A stretch of DNA of 48,904 bases, taken from IMG/VR virus record IMGVR_UViG_3300031603_000008, positions 1-48,904 of that record, one strand, 5' to 3'. Positions 1,686 to 44,902 of this stretch are shown piece after piece (within the stretch, counting starts at the first letter, position 1; each line of letters starts with the position of its first letter). The notes below the pieces were generated by a model. The model made no database searches and had not been told where the DNA came from. It was given only the letters and a program-made list of their open reading frames with translations. Made by a program: the position numbers and the translations under genes. The stretch is from a virus.

Positions 1686-3608
1686 CTATGGGTATATAGA
1701 TGCAAAAACATCACTATATGCTTTTTCTCTTAATCTTATATGATTAGTCTGTAGTGTATAGTCAGGCTGTGTGCTTATCACTTGACCTCTTACTGTACCA
1801 AAATATTCATCACCAACTAATTCTGATAATACTCCGTTGAGTACTTCTTGAAATATCTGAGCTGTAGTAACAAGTTCAATTAGTTCATCAGTAGCACCAA
1901 TAGTATCTATATAAGTATCTCTATGTGTAACAACTAAAGTCTGTAATGACAGATCAAGCTCTATTACATCATAAATATTAATGTCCAAGTACTGTGCACC
2001 TAGCAATACTACATCAAACACCTTGTGTATTCTGTAATAGTCATCAGCTTGAATTAAAGCTCTCTGTGTGGCTAATGCTAAAGTATATAGACCACTTATC
2101 TTATTGTACACCTTCTCAATTTTATACTCAGCAAATGATTCATCAAAGTAGTCAATGTTCTCCACTCTTGGTGCTGTATCATTAAGCACTGATCTATTAT
2201 AACCTATATAAACTTTGTTGTAAACATCTTCCTTATTAGATTCTGCAACAACATCCTCTATGTTTTTTATTCGGATAGATGGCACAGAAAATGATAAGTC
2301 TCTGTTAGGGTTATCTACCTTAATGACTCTTTTATTATCTGCTGTATTAGTGTATCTGAACCCAACAGTAGATAAGGATTGTATCTGTCTTATCCACTCA
2401 AACACGTCCTGTGTACTATCCATGTATAAAGAGATAGGACTTAAGTAAACTTCTTCAAGTGCCCAAGTGACTAGATCATATCCCGAAGCATCAAAGTTAT
2501 AGCCAAGAAACCTTTCATTTAAGTCAACTACTATATCACTAGCATAAGTATTCTCTACACCTTTAACATTCGCTTTAACAGGAAATGCACTATAAGTACC
2601 ACCACTTACAGTCTCAGCACCATTAACAGTGACAATACCTGTTGATGAATTAACAGATACACCTGTTGTTTGCAGAATCCATACATCATCAGAGTTCTTT
2701 ATCCATACTTCAATATCCGAAGCTACTGAGTAGGATAATACCTCTAAGAATAGGAAGTCTGGTTTAGTCGTACCATCCAAGGCTAAACCATTAACAAGTA
2801 ATCCGGGAACATCATGTGTAAACTCATCAACTGGTGTGTAAGCAAAGGGTATAGTCTTACCTACTGCTGTGTCATCAAGATAGGGATAGTCAGTCACATT
2901 AAGTATCTTATTAGGTACTTGTGCTGTAAGAGTCTTTCTTATATCCTGTATGTCAACAGTAAACTCAGACGCTGAAAAGTTATAATCATCAACAAAATAA
3001 TTAGCTCTTTCAACTAAGTCTGAGTACTCATCACCTTCATTACCAGTCTTAATAGTTACCTTGTTACCATATAGAGGAACGTCCTTAAACTGATTAAAGA
3101 AGCCTGTATTATTATCAAGTATCAAAGTATCTACAATAAATGCCATTTGTCCATAATTGAACTTATCCACAAAAGTTGCTATTTGGGGAAAACTTATTAG
3201 ATATGGATAGTAAGGCCTATTCTCAAAGTATCTAATTTTATCATCTGTAAGTCCTACAGCAATACCTATATCAAAGTTAGGATCAGTGTAGTCTATATGA
3301 TGTAATTGAGCATAATGTATGTATAGTACTTGCTCTGCATTATCCCAGAAGTAACTTTGTGAGTCTACTAGACAGTCAGCTAGAGATTCTTTGTTAGAGT
3401 AGTTGAAAGCATTAGCATAAACAACACCTGTAACATAAGTTCTTAAAGTAAGAGGTTCAGTTACACCTAAGTCAGTAGTCCAGAAATCAGCTATCTCTTC
3501 ATTTGCAGCACCATAGTAAAACTTAAATGAGACAACAAATGGGTGTCCTGTTGGAGCATAGTAGTTAGAGATTGCTTTTAGTCTTGTTATTTCTGTTACA
3601 ACGTACAT
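1686..3608 (-). CDS. Tail tip / baseplate-like structural protein
   Basis: 640-residue protein in the tail module, beginning MYVVTEITRLKA. It has no family motif that I can name with certainty. It is rich in Tyr, Asp and Val with no membrane segment, as expected for a beta-rich virion protein. It lies after the tape measure protein and two smaller tail proteins and before fibre 1, where siphophages encode the tail-tip or tail-associated hub protein. Its stop overlaps the ribosome site of fibre 1. Role inferred from size and position. Confidence 0.6.
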   Translation of the reverse strand: MYVVTEITRLKAISNYYAPTGHPFVVSFKFYYGAANEEIADFWTTDLGVTEPLTLRTYVTGVVYANAFNYSNKESLADCLVDSQSYFWDNAEQVLYIHYAQLHHIDYTDPNFDIGIAVGLTDDKIRYFENRPYYPYLISFPQIATFVDKFNYGQMAFIVDTLILDNNTGFFNQFKDVPLYGNKVTIKTGNEGDEYSDLVERANYFVDDYNFSASEFTVDIQDIRKTLTAQVPNKILNVTDYPYLDDTAVGKTIPFAYTPVDEFTHDVPGLLVNGLALDGTTKPDFLFLEVLSYSVASDIEVWIKNSDDVWILQTTGVSVNSSTGIVTVNGAETVSGGTYSAFPVKANVKGVENTYASDIVVDLNERFLGYNFDASGYDLVTWALEEVYLSPISLYMDSTQDVFEWIRQIQSLSTVGFRYTNTADNKRVIKVDNPNRDLSFSVPSIRIKNIEDVVAESNKEDVYNKVYIGYNRSVLNDTAPRVENIDYFDESFAEYKIEKVYNKISGLYTLALATQRALIQADDYYRIHKVFDVVLLGAQYLDINIYDVIELDLSLQTLVVTHRDTYIDTIGATDELIELVTTAQIFQEVLNGVLSELVGDEYFGTVRGQVISTQPDYTLQTNHIRLREKAYSDVFASIYP

Positions 3609-5114: not shown

Positions 5115-8100
5115 ATCTTCACCTGTCCATTTCTATAGTATTTTGCTGAGTTAGTAGCTACAACTCTTCCATCTAGCACAGTTTGTATAGTAATATATAT
5201 AGGCTGATCATCCTGTGTCATTTGATCATACACTGTATCCTGTTGTGCTCTGTTAAGTATCAGTTCTCCTGCATTAGCAGATACATCTGTACTATCACCT
5301 TTGTAAGAAGATCCGGGAACTATACCACCATCTGCAAACTGCTCTCTTACAGGCTCAGCTTTAGTTGCTGCTGCATACTGAAAAGCTGTTACTCCAGCCA
5401 TACCAGCTGCAATAGCCCAACCATAAGGTCCGGCTGACCAAGCCTTCATTGTTGCGACTGCACCGTTAAGTAGTATACTTAGTCTACCTAGTTCCCACTC
5501 ATTCTTGGCCTGATCATAGTTAATATCACTAATCTTGTCAGCTAGTTCGTCAGCTGCATTAGATGTGGCAGTGTCATATGCGTCCTGTGCAGCTTCCTTT
5601 CTGTCTAGGTAGTCTTGTGATATATCATAACGTGCAATTGCAGTTATTAAATCTTGTTCCTTTAAGTAGTCATTAGCGACCCTAGCTGCTTCAAGACTAG
5701 CCTCTAATTGCTCACGTTCAGTCTTTTCCTGAACACCAGCTGCAACTAGGGCAGCTTGTAACTCTTTATCAATATCTGCTAAATTAGCTGCAAGTTCATC
5801 ATCGCGTATACCTTGTGCTTTAAGAGCTTTTTTCTCTAGTATTCTAATCTCTTCATCAGCTGCTGCTCTCTGGTAATCTAGTACACTGTCTACTACATCT
5901 ATTGCTAAATTGCCATAAGTGTCAAGCATATCTGTTGACTTAACGAACCAACCAGCTTCTCTTTTTTCAAGCTCATCATAGTATGCGTCTATAGCAATAA
6001 GTGTTTCCTTATAAACCTCATCTGTTATTTTACCTCTATCACGTTGGAGTTTTAGACTATCTGTTGCATTTTTCCTTTCTGCATTGACTCTGTCCCCTGC
6101 ATCATAGTCTAGTGCTTTTAGTTTTTCTTCATATTCACCAGCTAGGTCTATCTGTGCTTGGTCTAAGTCAAGATTTGCTCTAAGTTCCTTGTTGTACGCT
6201 TTAATAGCAATAATCGCTTCTGCATCAGTGCCAGCTTTTATAATTGCTGCTGCCTCTTCTCTATCTATTTTCTCAAGTTCTGTCTCAGTTAGTTCTAATA
6301 GCTTATCTTGATACTCCTGTGTCAAAGTTAACTTTTCTTCCATCAATAAGGCTATCTCTGGATATTTATCAAGAATCTGCTGTATATCTGCACCTTCATA
6401 CTCAAACTCTTCACCAAGCAGCCCATTGATAGTATCTATTAAAGCTTGTCTATCCTCTAGTGTTTTGTTATAAACTTCACCCTTCTCCTTAGCAAATATC
6501 TCTAACTGTACATTTTCTTTTAGCCTAGAAGCTAATCTGGATTGTGCTGCAATGATCTTTTCTTTGTCAGTTAGGTCTTCTTTACTTAGGTCAATTACAA
6601 TGTTGTACTTCTCTTGCAAAGTATCGAACAGCTCTATCTGATCCAGCATACCCTTATCTTGTGATTTAACACCCTGATTTACTAACGTTTTTAGAGACTT
6701 ATTGTATATGTCCACTAGGTAAGCACTCTGATCAAACTCATCACCAAATAACTTCTGTAGCTCTACGGATCTTTTAAAGGCTGTCTCCAATCCCTCAGTT
6801 GCTTCACCTTCTGCCTTAATCTGAGCTAATCTACGTTGGTAGTATGCTGTAGACCGATTTCTACTCTCCTTCTCAAATTCAGTTAAGGCATAAGCCTGTA
6901 ACCATCTATCTCTTTCTGCCTTAGCTAATTTTTCCTCAGCTTCTACCTGCAATAGTATCTCTATTACTAAATCACCTGACGTTTTTATGAGTTCCTTGTT
7001 AGCCATAGCTAAGTCAATAACTTGTTTCTCAGTTAGTCCATACACCTCAGCTAATCTTTTTACTTCTTCTCTGAAAAGTTTAGTACTACTAACACCTAAC
7101 TGTCCCATCTTAAGTAACTCAGAACTCAGATTACTAAGTCTAATAGATACCTTCTCAACCTCTGTTCCAGTTGCACCCATTTCTTCGGCAATACTACCAA
7201 ACTGATCAACAGCTTTGTCAATACCGGCATTATTTAATGCTATAAGACCAGCTGTCAGTGCAGCTACAGCTCCAACAGCAATAGTTGCTGGAAGTGCTAT
7301 AGCAGCTAAAGCTGCAATAACAGGTGCAATAACAGCACTTGCCATAGCTAATTTTAAAGCAGTAAAAGCTACAGTTAATGTTGTAACTACTGCTGCTAGA
7401 GTTATAAACACACTACCAGCTGCAAGAAAAGATTCTGGAGCCTTATTAACTGCTAATAGTATACCTGTAATTGTATCAACCAGCACTCTAAGTGTAGGAC
7501 TTAACTGCTTGCCAACACTAATCTCTAGTGCTTCTTCTGCATTTCTAAACTTGTCAATAGAACCCTGCAATGTATTCATCTGAATATCCATTGCTTCGAA
7601 AGCTCTAGTAGTTCCTGTCACAGATTCAGTTAACTCTATCATACCACCTTCAGCATCACTAGCCACTGATATAAGTGAAGCTAACTGTACACCTGATACT
7701 TTACCAAATATAGCTGCGGCATTTGCAGCATTTACACCATTCTCTCTAAGTGTATCAAATATGTCAGCAAGCTTATTAGTTGCAGGGTTAACATCAGCAA
7801 AAGCTATGTTAAGCTTACCTAGTTTTCTAGTAACAACGCTAGTAGAGTCAGCTAAGTCAACGAGTATACTTCTTAATCCACGACCTGCCTTTTCACCACT
7901 AAAACCTTTATTGTAAAGTAGTTCCAAAGCACCCGTAGTCTCTTCAACTGTTATACCCAGTCCAGCTGCAATCGGCCCGACATACTCAAATGACTTAGCT
8001 AGCTTATTCATTGTTGCAAGAGAATTAGTTATTGCAGCAGTAAATGTATTAGCAATATCTGTAGCTGCATCAGTCTCTAGTCCATACTGCCTAATAGTTG

Positions 8101-9392: not shown

Positions 9393-10367
9393 TTAACCTA
9401 CGGTAATGCCCAATGTATCAAACTGAGTAAGACTTAAAAAGTCTTCTGTATAACCTGAGTATTTAACACCACTAAGTGTATACTCTCTTACTCTTAAGTT
9501 AAACTGGTAAGTTGCCCATGCCTTAACATCATCGCTCATATCACCTTCAAAACCATTACAGTTGTTGAAGTTAAGCCTTTTGTAACCACTCATGTTATTA
9601 CGAAGGTTTGAACCTTTGTCATACTTAGCTTCATAAGCTTCACCTGCAAATCCTGGCAAGTAAACCTGACTTGTAGTAGGTGGTGTGTATCTGTTGCTAA
9701 CACCTGTTACAGACTGATCATTAGATCCACCCTGAATAAGTTCTTTAAGTTCCCACAGCTCATCAGTAAGTGCCAAGGAAGGATTAAGACCTTTGAGTAA
9801 TGCAGCAGATACCATAGACAGAGTTGATCCATCACCAGACTCCACTTCAATCTCTTCAAAATCTTTAATCTCTTTAGGAAGTCCAAGTGCACCAGAGTTA
9901 TCAAAACAATCTACAAAATGTGTTCCAAAACCAGTAGTGTTACTTTTAAACGAACCAAGGCCAAGTGCACCCACAATGTCTTCTACAAGACTTGGGCCGA
10001 ACTCAAGGTAAGTTGCTGTAGCTGCTGTTTCTATAATCTTTAGTCTGCTGCTGTCTGCATCTAGCGATGCTGTGAATACTGCACTAAAGTTTGCATTTAA
10101 GTTAAGACCAGTAACTGCTTCTGCCACAGTCATAGCTGAATCATCAACAATAGTCATAGCGACAAAGTTTACGACTATCTCTGTAAATGCACCAGTAGCA
10201 CCAAGTCGATAAGACATTGTAGCTGCTGCTGTTAATGATGACACATCCGATGTGCCTAAGAAACCAATCTGTCGATCTACTGCTGGATAAGTTCCATCAG
10301 GATTAAGCCTTCTCCATCTTGAGCCTTCAATGGAAAAGGAAGTTTTGTTGTCAAATGAATAACCCAT
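9393..10367 (-). CDS. Major tail (tube) protein
   Basis: 324 residues, soluble, rich in small and beta-forming residues (for example MSYRLGATGAFTEIVVNF). It lies between the neck genes and the chaperone/tape measure pair, which is the standard siphophage place for the tube subunit. There is no sheath gene next to it, consistent with a non-contractile tail. The gene is followed by a stable hairpin, as is the capsid gene. No single motif proves the family. Confidence 0.7.
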   Translation of the reverse strand: MGYSFDNKTSFSIEGSRWRRLNPDGTYPAVDRQIGFLGTSDVSSLTAAATMSYRLGATGAFTEIVVNFVAMTIVDDSAMTVAEAVTGLNLNANFSAVFTASLDADSSRLKIIETAATATYLEFGPSLVEDIVGALGLGSFKSNTTGFGTHFVDCFDNSGALGLPKEIKDFEEIEVESGDGSTLSMVSAALLKGLNPSLALTDELWELKELIQGGSNDQSVTGVSNRYTPPTTSQVYLPGFAGEAYEAKYDKGSNLRNNMSGYKRLNFNNCNGFEGDMSDDVKAWATYQFNLRVREYTLSGVKYSGYTEDFLSLTQFDTLGITVG

Positions 10368-32914: not shown

Positions 32915-33664
32915 ATGGCTAAGTCAAAACTAGATTTCATTCACGAAGCAGAAGACACATTGGAAGGTTTTGAAGATATTAACTCTTCTACCAAAGCAAT
33001 TCCATTTCTTAAGTTGGCACAGGATCTTACACCCCAGACCAAGAAGAACAAACCAGAGTACATTGAAGGTTTGGAAGTAGGCCAGTTCTTTAACTCTGTA
33101 ACTGGAGATGTTTACGGAACAGAGATTGATGTGATCATTGCAAAGTTTGAGCACATGTATATTGAGTGGAAGCCAGACAGAGGAGGATTTGTACAGTACC
33201 TTACACCAGAAGTAGCAGAAAAAGAAGCTACAGATAAGTCAGTGTTTGGCAAGTGGAAAACTGCAAGTGGTAATGAGCTTAGAGAGTACTATGCTTACTA
33301 TACAATCATTGCTGGAAGAGAAGAAGAAGGCATACTAATAATGTCTCTCACATCAACAGCAATCAAAACTGCAAAGATGCTGAACAAAATGATGACTACT
33401 CATCTTATGGATGACGTAGATAAGAATGGCAAACCAACTCAAGTTAAAGCAAAACCTTTTTACTTAGTGTATACCCTTAACTCTGCACTACAGACCAAAG
33501 GTGCAAATGACTTTTATGGCTACAGGTTTACATTTAAGGACTTCATAAATGAGAAGCAGTATGCTGTAGTTGGTACTGAACGTGTGGCACTTCCAGACAA
33601 AACAGTTAACTATGCAGCACTTGAAGATCATTCTGCACAGGTCGTAGGTGAAGACGACTTTTAA
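32915..33664 (+). CDS. Putative ssDNA-binding / recombination protein
   Basis: 249 residues. AIPFLKLAQDLTPQ, EYIEGLEVGQFFNSVTGDVY and YIEWKPDRGGFVQYL are typical of a phage protein found in replication modules beside RecB-like nucleases. The acidic ending AQVVGEDDF resembles the protein-interaction tail of ssDNA-binding proteins. It is followed by the nuclease and primase genes. It carries structured RNA on both sides (hairpins before, minihelix after). Confidence 0.6.
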   Translation: MAKSKLDFIHEAEDTLEGFEDINSSTKAIPFLKLAQDLTPQTKKNKPEYIEGLEVGQFFNSVTGDVYGTEIDVIIAKFEHMYIEWKPDRGGFVQYLTPEVAEKEATDKSVFGKWKTASGNELREYYAYYTIIAGREEEGILIMSLTSTAIKTAKMLNKMMTTHLMDDVDKNGKPTQVKAKPFYLVYTLNSALQTKGANDFYGYRFTFKDFINEKQYAVVGTERVALPDKTVNYAALEDHSAQVVGEDDF

Positions 33665-33670
33665 GCACAC

Positions 33671-33715
33671 TAGAGAGGATGGCATACAGGGAAGGTTCGA
33701 GTCCTTCCCTCTCTA
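33671..33715 (+). ncRNA. tRNA-like acceptor/T-arm minihelix
   Basis: AGAGAGG (33672-33678) pairs with CCTCTCT (33708-33714), seven pairs. T-stem GAAGG/CCTTC (33691-33695, 33703-33707), five pairs. The loop is TTCGAGT with the invariant T54, T55, C56 and A58 of tRNA, and G53-C61. A further T33671-A33715 pair extends the end. A 12-base linker replaces the D, anticodon and variable regions. The dimensions are those of a minimal RNase P substrate (12 stacked pairs). No CCA is encoded. It fills the gap between two genes. Confidence 0.75.
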
Positions 33716-33742
33716 TAGCACATAAATTAAAGGAGAAAAATA

Positions 33743-34390
33743 ATGGGTTTACTTATCACACCAAGTTTGTTTGATTCTATTGACTGGTTGAACAAATGTC
33801 CAGCAAGCTACAAGAAAGGGGCATATAAACAGTTGTCTAATAGTCTTAACAGAGTATGGACACCACCAAACAAAGCAATAAAGAGAGGCATGGACTATGA
33901 GAAGAAACTATGTCATGGGGTAAGTCCTATAGATGATGTAGCACCCGATCTTCATGAGAAGTTTAAGAAAGCTTATGATAGGATACATGCAGAAGGATGT
34001 AACTTTCAACATAAAGCAAAGAAGAATATATTTATGGACGAAAAAGAGTTTACACTATATGGCAAGCTTGATGTATACTTTGAAGACAAACCAATTATAG
34101 ACATTAAGACTACTGGAAATTACAGAGGTAAAGGATCATACTTAAGCAAATGGCAACACAAGGTATATCCTTTCTGTACTGGCATAGCTGACTTTACATA
34201 TATTGTGTATGAGTTTGATAATGACTCTGGTCTTCTCATAAATATACATTTCATTGATTACCATGTTGATGATTTTGTAGCACTCGAAAAAGAAATAATG
34301 GACAATCTTGCTAAGGTAATAAAGTTTATACGTTCAGATGTTAAACTTAAAAAAGCTTACTTGAACACTTTCAATATGTACAATAATTAG
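33743..34390 (+). CDS. PD-(D/E)XK exonuclease, RecB-like
   Basis: 215 residues. YGKLDVYFEDKPIIDIKTTG gives the D...D-x-K nuclease motif. It is followed by YLSKWQHKVYPFCTG, the Q-motif helix typical of RecB-like phage exonucleases. AAAGGAG site 33731. It works with the preceding ssDNA-binding protein in recombination or end processing. Confidence 0.75.
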   Translation: MGLLITPSLFDSIDWLNKCPASYKKGAYKQLSNSLNRVWTPPNKAIKRGMDYEKKLCHGVSPIDDVAPDLHEKFKKAYDRIHAEGCNFQHKAKKNIFMDEKEFTLYGKLDVYFEDKPIIDIKTTGNYRGKGSYLSKWQHKVYPFCTGIADFTYIVYEFDNDSGLLINIHFIDYHVDDFVALEKEIMDNLAKVIKFIRSDVKLKKAYLNTFNMYNN

Positions 34391-34399
34391 GAGCTTAAC

Positions 34400-36010
34400 T
34401 TGGCTATATCGGAGCTACAATTAAACAACTTTAAAGATCTATTTGTAGGCAATACACTTAATTATGGTAGACATATGTATGCCTTCGCAAATAAGCAAGG
34501 TGATAAGGAGAAAGGAACTAACTCCTCTATAAAGAATAAGCTACTTACTATAAAGGAGTATAGACAACACCTTAATGGGGTGGAAGGTCTAGGTATTATA
34601 CCTATAGATGCTGACAATATGTCTAAGTTTGCAGTAATTGATATAGATGTGTACAACCAAGATTTTAAGCCATATCTTGAAGCTATAGAAAGGCACAATT
34701 TTCCTTTAGTACCCTTCTATAGCAAGTCAGGTGGACTGCATATATACGTGTTCTTTAGAGACAGAGTAAGATCTAAGGATGCTGTGGACAGACTAAAAAA
34801 GATATCCCGAATACTTGGAATAACTTTGTTTGTAAAACAACATAAAAATGAGGCACTTGAGATATTCCCTAAGCAAACTAAGCTAAGTGTGGGACAGATG
34901 GGTAATTGGATAAACTTGCCCTACTACAATGCAGAGGATACAAAACAATCTGTAATACTTAATGGTAAAGCCTTAGACTTTAATAGTGCTTTAATGCACA
35001 TGAAGAGTAAGTTAACATCAATTATTGAGCTAGATGAGCTACTAGATGACTTGCCTTATAATGATGCACCCCCATGCTTACAGACACTATATCTTTTAAG
35101 TATGCTAGGTGAAAATAATGGAAGGAACAACTATCTTTTTTCATTCGGAGTATATCTTAAAAAGAAGGATGAGAATTACTTTGAACAAGCTGTAATGAAG
35201 ATCAACAACGAACTTGAAGTACCACTTGAAACTAAAGAGGTAGAGGAAACTTTGTTGTCTTCTTTAAGAAAAAAGGACTATACATACATGTGTACTACTG
35301 CACCTTGTGTGGACTTTTGTGACAAGAAAGTATGCCAAAAGAGAGAATATGGCATAGGCCAAATGGGTGGTTACTTTAGTAATCTAATCTTTGGTGACAT
35401 GGTTCAGTACCAGACAGCATCACCCTACTATGAATGGGAAGTTAAGGGCCAAGATGTAGCTGAGTTTAAGATACTTAGATTTAAGAATGAAGATGAAGTA
35501 ATAAAACAGGATGTATTCTTAAGGCTATGTTTCAGGGAACTTAGGTTCTTACCTTTTAAGATGAAGCAAACTGAATGGTTTAAGTTAGTCAACCAAGCAC
35601 TTACCTCTATAAAGTTTAAGGATGTAGACAAAGAAGATGATACATCACCTGAGATAAGGTTCCATAATGCCTTTTATGAGTTCTTAACAGCAAGAGCACC
35701 AGCAACTACAAAGGATCAGATATTCGGAAAGAGGGTGTACTTTAGCCAGAGAGATGATAGATTCTACTTTAGGACTAAAGACTTTGTAACTTATCTGTAT
35801 GAGTACAAGAACTTTAGACTATTCTCTTCTGGTGAAGTACATGGTATGCTCAGAGATATAGGAGTACTAACTAAAGTACTTAGGACTGAAACAGGTAAAC
35901 AAATAAGGGTAATGGGAATTATAAAAGATAAGGTTCATGAAGAGTACAAGAGTGTGCCAGACAACTATGAAGTGGACTTTAGTGAGTATGAAGAAAAAGA
36001 GGAGTTTTAA
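34400..36010 (+). CDS. Archaeo-eukaryotic-type primase
   Basis: 536 residues, TTG start with TAGGAG upstream. FAVIDIDVY (DxD, residues 81-83) and SGGLHIYVFF (110-119) are the catalytic motifs of AEP primases. A later CTTAPCVDFCDKKVCQKRE segment is a four-Cys zinc site, as in primase zinc knuckles. The C-terminal 200 residues may be a helicase-loading or DNA-binding part. It makes primers for the DNA polymerase. Confidence 0.8.
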   Translation: MAISELQLNNFKDLFVGNTLNYGRHMYAFANKQGDKEKGTNSSIKNKLLTIKEYRQHLNGVEGLGIIPIDADNMSKFAVIDIDVYNQDFKPYLEAIERHNFPLVPFYSKSGGLHIYVFFRDRVRSKDAVDRLKKISRILGITLFVKQHKNEALEIFPKQTKLSVGQMGNWINLPYYNAEDTKQSVILNGKALDFNSALMHMKSKLTSIIELDELLDDLPYNDAPPCLQTLYLLSMLGENNGRNNYLFSFGVYLKKKDENYFEQAVMKINNELEVPLETKEVEETLLSSLRKKDYTYMCTTAPCVDFCDKKVCQKREYGIGQMGGYFSNLIFGDMVQYQTASPYYEWEVKGQDVAEFKILRFKNEDEVIKQDVFLRLCFRELRFLPFKMKQTEWFKLVNQALTSIKFKDVDKEDDTSPEIRFHNAFYEFLTARAPATTKDQIFGKRVYFSQRDDRFYFRTKDFVTYLYEYKNFRLFSSGEVHGMLRDIGVLTKVLRTETGKQIRVMGIIKDKVHEEYKSVPDNYEVDFSEYEEKEEF

Positions 36011-44374: not shown

Positions 44375-44380
44375 CAAACT

Positions 44381-44413
44381 AAGCCAGAGGGGTTATTCCT
44401 TCTGGCTTTTTAT
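44381..44413 (+). terminator. Terminator between convergent units
   Basis: AAGCCAGAGG (from 44381) pairs with CCTTCTGGCTT (to 44408), about 10-12 pairs with a small TTAT-type loop, followed by TTTTTATA on the plus strand. On the minus strand the end of the last lysis gene lies inside the hairpin and the T run is weak, so it mainly ends early transcription. Confidence 0.85.
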
Positions 44414-44902
44414 ATAGTCATATACTATTTTAGATGTAAGACCTAGCAAAGAAACAATACCCAGACCTAAGCCTAAATTAGTCTTCCATATCTGAGCTTT
44501 CAATTGTTTCTCTAAAAGTTTCAGTAATATCTCTGAGTTGGCCAACGACTCCAACAATAAGTCCATATCTTTTTTCGCCTGATCTAACTGACTCACTAAT
44601 ACTACTAAGTCCTTCTTCAATAGTGTTGCTTCGTTCAGTAAGCTCGTTGCTTCTTTTGACAACTCCTGTAGCTCCACTTTCAATTGTTTCGCTTCTTGTA
44701 CTAAGACTGGCAACTGTTCGCTCCATTCCATTATGTCCTTCTGAGACATCACTACCAATTGATTGAGCTGACTTAATTTCTGTTCGTATTGCTTCTGTAG
44801 TGTCCAATATTGGTCTAAGCTGGACTCTGCCAATAAAGAACCAGATGAGGCCAACAAGAATAATACCAGTAAGCATACCATAACCAAACTTTTCCATTTC
44901 AT
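44393..44902 (-). CDS. Spanin-like protein, frame A
   Basis: 169 residues. N-terminal signal sequence (K2, K4, then LVMVCLLVLFLLA and an LLAES cleavage-like site), long Leu-rich coiled coil, and a C-terminal membrane helix (LGLGLGIVSLLGL). This is the layout of a single-molecule spanin, though no lipobox cysteine is seen. Its ATG overlaps the stop of the holin-like gene (ATGA), so it can be reached by coupled translation. Most of it overlaps frame B. Confidence 0.65.
   Translation of the reverse strand: MKWKSLVMVCLLVLFLLASSGSLLAESSLDQYWTLQKQYEQKLSQLNQLVVMSQKDIMEWSEQLPVLVQEAKQLKVELQELSKEATSLLNEATLLKKDLVVLVSQLDQAKKDMDLLLESLANSEILLKLLEKQLKAQIWKTNLGLGLGIVSLLGLTSKIVYDYIKSQKE
44478..44897 (-). CDS. 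Spanin-like protein, frame B, overlapping
   Basis: 139 residues from ATG 44897, seven bases after GGGGGAG and five bases after the frame A start. N-terminal membrane helix (MLTGIILVGLIWFFIG), then a coiled coil rich in Glu, Ser and Arg (ERTVASLSTRSETIESGATG) to the end, the layout of an inner-membrane spanin. The whole frame lies inside frame A in another register. An upstream GTG at 44921 is in frame but has no site. Confidence 0.6.
   Translation of the reverse strand: MEKFGYGMLTGIILVGLIWFFIGRVQLRPILDTTEAIRTEIKSAQSIGSDVSEGHNGMERTVASLSTRSETIESGATGVVKRSNELTERSNTIEEGLSSISESVRSGEKRYGLIVGVVGQLRDITETFRETIESSDMED

Follow-up and report, generated by a model that had tools for sequence, protein, structure and literature searches.

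The element at 33671-33716 of the window, by which we mean the whole stretch of 48,904 bases from a virus record that was analysed here, belongs with a probability of about 0.97 to a phage RNA family that appears not to have been described before and that imitates the elbow of tRNA in minimal form. Members are about 41 nt long and consist of a 5-bp stem (P1), a linker NNN-GGCANACA and a 6-bp T-arm (P2) closed by a TTCGAGT loop, with no D stem, anticodon arm or CCA. We regard this as a family in its own right among tRNA-like structures, and it appears to be new. No Rfam 15 match was obtained at gathering threshold over the window element or over the elements of eight element-rich loci, and no published description was found in the open-access literature; one may exist elsewhere.

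Structure of the window copy

The window copy was recognised by R1, a covariance model trained on 84 sequences that did not include the window. Positions 1-45 of this model matched 33671-33716 on the + strand at 42.4 bits (E 2.2e-12), and this was the sole match within the window. A broader covariance model, R2, gave a score of 46.2 bits, the window being one of its 142 training sequences. Read in tRNA register, the acceptor-like strands are AGAGAGG (33672-33678, +) and CCTCTCT (ending at 33714, +), the T-arm consists of GAAGG, the TTCGAGT loop and CCTTC on the same strand, the 12-nt linker (+) is ATGGCATACAGG, and an eighth outer pair, T33671-A33715, is present. The sequence-only reading had described an acceptor/T-arm mimic without D and anticodon arms at 33671-33715. 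This was borne out, the sequence being exactly as given with the eighth pair in addition, on the transcribed strand and after an SSB-like gene. Its claim of exact tRNA dimensions holds for this copy but not for most copies of the family, in which 5 + 6 = 11 pairs are stacked. The 12-base linker is also there, but it is no filler, as its GGCA.ACA is invariant and it has a base pair that covaries.

When aligned to the family model, all on the + strand, P1 pairs GAGAG (33673..33677) with CTCTC (33709..33713), which is followed by TAT, and the stem is lengthened outward by two pairs, A33672-T33714 and T33671-A33715. The linker, GAT-GGCATACA-G (33678..33689), contains the covarying pair (A33679 at model position 9 and T33685 at model position 15), the invariant D-loop-like GG (33681-33682) and one base inserted in this copy, G33689. 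The T-stem, P2, pairs GGAAGG (33690..33695) with CCTTCC (33703..33708) around the T-loop (33696..33702). With a perfect GAGAG/CTCTC P1 and the A33679-T33685 linker pair, the window copy has both of the pairing traits of the family.

The folding energy of the element is unremarkable when taken alone (z -1.7), and a T-loop consensus together with a 5-bp T-stem and a 7-bp acceptor was seen once in 40 simulated genomes. It is chiefly the family membership that decides against a chance origin. ARAGORN found no tRNA in the window, and a relaxed-threshold Rfam search over the span of the element gave only mascRNA-menRNA (RF01684) at 19.3 bits and tRNA (RF00005) at 18.1 bits, both below the respective gathering cut-offs of 42.5 and 29 bits. 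The 3' half of the element had no exact match in 84,980 genomes. A terminator scan of the window did not list the element, whose flank TATAGCACAT is without a U-tract.

Pairing and linker of the family

The best blastn match in named phages was located in an unannotated gap of Streptomyces phage Endor1 and had the same build, with a linker, GGCACACA, that resembles the GGCATACA of the window. From these two sequences we derived the search pattern GGCAYACAN{3,6}GGTTCGARTCC, which covers only the linker and the T-loop, and this pattern matched at least 119 IMG/VR contigs, many of them several times. P1, which is absent from the pattern, was present as a perfect 5-bp stem in 118 of the 123 distinct matches. 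In an ungapped alignment of 84 sequences, 99.4% of the cells were paired, against 68.5% after shuffling and at most 49.6% after sliding. Both sides change in 10 of the 12 pairs, the remaining two being fixed by the pattern, and covariation is seen in all five pairs of P1 across the family. RNAalifold recovered both stems unaided. The invariance of the linker core and T-loop is partly by construction, because the pattern fixes them; the evidence free of the pattern is that from P1, the outer part of P2, position 9 and the flanks.

Among the copies there are 22 G.U pairs and 2 A.C pairs, which indicates that the transcribed strand is the folding strand. The base preceding P1 is usually A (69%), the end pair of P1 is G:C in 91%, and the consensus flank contains no U-tract. 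P1 is followed by R (98%) and then by C (94%), a frequent trait of the family which is no part of the membership definition; it is missing in the window, where the aligned register gives T-A and the flank reads TAT (or ATA in the other register).

In the first set of sequences, A at position 9 was found with U at position 15, and G at position 9 with C at position 15. Before a new scan was made, we predicted that G at position 15 would be accompanied by C at position 9. The scan for GGCAGACA returned 107 contigs, and position 9 was C in 94 of the 96 copies with an intact P1. Since this prediction held, the linker folds on itself around N-GG-C-A. In this fold, P1 stacks on the T-arm, and the linker NNGGCANACA turns back by way of its own 9:15 pair and presents a D-loop-like GG. 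We infer by analogy that the linker GG docks into the T-loop, as G18-G19 do in tRNA, and the 9:15 pair may be likened to the tRNA 15:48 pair.

The family is wider than the search pattern. Some divergent members have GGTTTTC, GGTTTCAC or the like as linker in place of GGCANACA and were observed at the usual site after a stop codon (9485-9529 and 9871-9915 in locus L316, 12869-12912 and 14206-14250 in locus L317).

Genomic placement, neighbouring genes and hosts

The gene upstream of the window element is Pam3 gp34-like (PF23977, phrog_2402; 32915..33664, +), and its product has the kind of acidic C-terminal tail, GEDDF, that ssDNA-binding proteins carry. The TAA stop codon of this gene is separated from P1 by 8 nt. 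The downstream gene (33743..34390, +) starts 29 nt after P1, is preceded by the Shine-Dalgarno sequence AAAGGAG (33731..33737, +) and is weakly similar to Cas4-type nucleases (phrog_1706, 26.9 bits). It is followed by genes for an AEP-type primase, a UvrD-like helicase and a family A DNA polymerase. The primase (34400-36010, +) combines a TOTE-type archaeo-eukaryotic primase domain (PF22548) with PriCT-1. No integrase was found near the element among the 21 larger window proteins scanned.

For 222 copies with a P1, a same-strand stop codon was found 4-14 nt upstream in 131 (median 8), a range that includes the 8 nt of the window copy. A stop codon within -3 to 25 nt accompanied 62% of the elements, compared with 8% of random positions and 11% on the opposite strand. 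Downstream, a start codon preceded by a Shine-Dalgarno sequence follows at a median of 43.5 nt, and among the 156 copies for which a start was detected, 128 have it within 60 nt; given this distance, transcription must pass through the element. In annotated phages nearly all copies are found in gaps between small early genes. In many actinophages the element is immediately preceded by a small hairpin that contains the stop codon, and in many a further hairpin begins about 3 nt past P1. The genes upstream of the copies are unrelated to one another, and accordingly the suggestion that the element has a special role for the message of the ssDNA-binding gene is unsupported.

Individual phages carry several copies: 8 in Endor1, 9 strong ones in Endor2, 9 in Kamino, 13 in Send513 and 6 in Predator, with a maximum of 15 in one metagenome virus. 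The named carriers include phages of Streptomyces (Endor1, Endor2, Joe and Kamino), Mycobacterium (Send513 and Predator) and Gordonia, and, by blastn only, of Microbacterium. A search of bacterial and archaeal genomes totalling 257 Gb gave only 23 matching stretches. The strong matches were mostly in Actinomycetota (Nocardia, Jiangella, Amycolatopsis, Microbacterium and Galactobacter) and Bacteroidota (Tenacibaculum, Hymenobacter, Proteiniphilum and Petrimonas), presumably in prophages.

Searches with the gp34-like and exonuclease proteins found no close relatives of the window in IMG/VR, and blastn of the flanking genes gave no match in named phages. The nearest relative, locus L014, has 34-44% amino-acid identity across the shared genes. 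A scan for T-loop minihelices in 160 gene-relative loci was negative, and the covariance models found the family element in 0 of 100 such loci (1.07 Mb), all of them distant, with at most 44% amino-acid identity. Relatives that keep the flanking genes and lack the element had been named in advance by the sequence-only reading as evidence against it, and such relatives are what we found. However, the mobility of the element is clearly not coupled to that of the genes, and the absence from these loci therefore counts against a gene-bound function, not against the element.

Other strong hairpins are common after the gp34-like gene in the relatives, with z < -2 in 67% compared with 0-11% after other well-sampled genes. 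A stem of at least 6 bp was present in 37 of 69 of these junctions, at a median of 7 nt past the stop codon, 18 had a T-tract, and some of the hairpins are intrinsic terminators. As hairpins are found at the gp34-like stop codon of most relatives, this site habitually holds some 3' hairpin, which in the window is an elbow mimic.

Two further recurrent motifs after the gp34-like gene are candidate new RNAs, and neither had an Rfam match among the loci searched. One is a GC-rich stem around AAGCGAGAGTGGA or AACGGGAGACTGAA, without a U-tract, which precedes the primase gene (loci L034, L038, L039, L044, L054, L055, L063, L091, L093 and L158; for example, L054 6432-6520). The other has the form GGGG..GAAAGCGGATGC...GCAGCGAGTA..CCCC ACC (loci L045, L067, L101, L104, L110 and L111; for example, L111 5588-5660). 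Locus L111 also carries an int-alpA RNA (RF02996, 51.1 bits) at 7469-7533 (+), in a phage replication region.

A possible RNase P-type processing signal and its alternatives

The structure, covariation, strand, position between genes, multiplicity and host range of the family were observed directly. As the simplest and most likely reading of its mechanism, we propose that the element may serve as punctuation in polycistronic phage mRNA and be cut by RNase P, a proposal to which we would give about even odds. Host RNase P, measuring from the elbow to the acceptor end, would cut on the 5' side of P1, a few nucleotides past the stop codon. The upstream message would be freed, its 3' UTR being minimal, and the message downstream would retain a blunt, tRNA-like 5' structure resisting 5' nucleases. 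For the 3' side, RNase Z or the CCA enzyme may have a role. An involvement of RNase P and any consequence for message stability are presumed. A wider formulation, tRNA punctuation without tRNA, in which phages of distant hosts would place an elbow mimic after stop codons throughout their early operons for RNase P or a different elbow reader, RNase Z or the CCA enzyme for example, to cut, trim or cap, is tentative, and its chances are slightly short of even. In mitochondrial polycistronic RNA, tRNA-shaped units between genes mark the cut sites; those units are real tRNAs, whereas the phage unit is a tRNA-free mimic for which cutting is only proposed.

RNase P reads the G1-C72 pair, R73 and C74 of tRNA. 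The D-loop-like GG, the T-loop, the G1:C72-like pair and the 3' RC of the family support an RNase P-type processing signal. The window element has the T-loop and the stacked acceptor-like stem, a trait of RNase P substrates, and the model-substrate features claimed by the sequence-only reading are in place. A hairpin of acceptor stem, T-stem and T-loop is cut by E. coli RNase P RNA (PMC11143913), and for RNase P the D-loop is apparently dispensable while a T-loop or similar loop is needed (PMC4919913). Model substrates such as AT1 share the stacking of P1 on the T-arm, the G1:C72-like pair and the 3' R-C (PMC11143913). They are artificial, whereas the phage element is natural, stacks 11 pairs instead of 12, and has a conserved linker with its own pair and RC(U/G) in place of RCCA. 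Natural non-tRNA substrates of RNase P from phages include the phi80 M3 RNA and the phage-derived antisense C4 RNA (PMC11143913), which are single RNAs with no known family relation and are set beside the phage element by description. The mascRNA/menRNA elements (RF01684), tRNA-like 3' elements of MALAT1 and MEN beta, which are RNase P substrates (PMC4919913), have the same tRNA-like elbow with a T-arm just past the transcript body. RF01684 is also the nearest Rfam model to several members, although the best score, 26.3 bits in Endor2, is below the cut-off; in contrast to these RNAs, the phage element lacks both D stem and anticodon arm, measures about 41 nt and is present in multiple copies in phage operons. 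With tRNA itself (RF00005) it shares the T-loop TTCGA, a T-stem ending in GG..CC, a linker GG like G18-G19 and a linker pair like 15:48; it differs in having no anticodon, D stem or CCA, and its common C-G linker pair is unusual for 15:48.

Several features count against reading by RNase P. Most copies stack 11 pairs rather than the 12 (7+5) of tRNA, the 3' flank is RC(U/G) and not RCC (TAT in the window), and P1 is preceded by A in most copies whereas RNase P prefers a U before the cut site. The second hairpin about 3 nt past P1 in actinophages could also hinder reading of the 3' end.

Possible rivals to an RNase P signal are, in descending order, a passive stabiliser, a protein operator and an attenuator. 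As a passive stabiliser, the elbow would block 3'->5' or 5'->3' exonucleases after cuts made elsewhere and would be no RNase P substrate. The strong hairpins at the gp34-like junctions of relatives and the extra hairpins flanking the element in actinophages are consistent with this, but a stabiliser has no need for the invariant GGCA.ACA, the linker pair, the T-loop or the 3' RC, and we consider it unlikely. Less likely again is a site for a phage or host RNA-binding protein, or for another reader of the tRNA elbow, by which translation of the operon genes would be regulated as a regulon. That a genome has many copies, their core invariant and the genes after them different, and that start codons lie about 44 nt downstream would suit such a site; however, position is tied more tightly to the upstream stop than to the downstream start, and a single core shared by unrelated phages from Actinomycetota and Bacteroidota speaks for a universal host factor over a phage protein. 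A transcription terminator or attenuator is improbable. The hairpin does lie past a stop codon, and some homologous junctions are terminators, but the consensus has no U-tract, the next start is close in most copies, and 9 to 13 copies in one operon would halt transcription repeatedly.

Two explanations have still lower probability. A DNA-level boundary for gene swapping, by recombination or site-specifically as with integron attC, would account for one element per gene in arrays of small, changing genes. However, stem sequences are free while pairing is kept, the excess of G.U over A.C pairs shows that the mRNA-sense strand is selected, and the loop is a tRNA T-loop, an RNA motif, so that we hold this to be very improbable. 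Seven phage tRNA-Tyr genes have the exact 23-mer GAAGGTTCGARTCCTTCCCTCTC as their 3' half, and a remnant of tRNA-Tyr was a tempting explanation until it was abandoned upon discovery of the linker family. That the element is a decayed tRNA-Tyr gene or a tRNA-derived attP is scarcely credible, as the score is 42 bits with the family model and 18 with the tRNA model, the linker fits the family and no tRNA, both strands of P1 are conserved, and many phages carry multiple copies.

If RNase P does read the element, phages would exploit an essential host ribozyme as mitochondria use tRNAs, and the element would be the smallest tRNA-elbow fold in nature and would allow the requirements of RNase P to be tested directly. 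Independently of function, this is a widespread RNA family outside Rfam 15, with strong covariation and a base pair that was predicted and then confirmed, in well-studied laboratory phages.

A tRNA-Tyr-like 3' end with CCACCA, at which ARAGORN calls no tRNA, was observed at 2706-2733 (+) of locus L166 and is possibly an attachment site. Annotated or ARAGORN calls of tRNA-Arg and tRNA-Ala overlap elements at 44378-44460 of Endor2 (L292), 6613-6706 of L173 and 8124-8206 of L209, and these are probably no true tRNAs. Several of the tRNAs annotated in element-bearing phages are probably elements of the family, which is a warning for annotation. Part of the family has been seen before under a wrong name, since the Endor2 call is a GenBank 'tRNA-Arg' that overlaps a family member.
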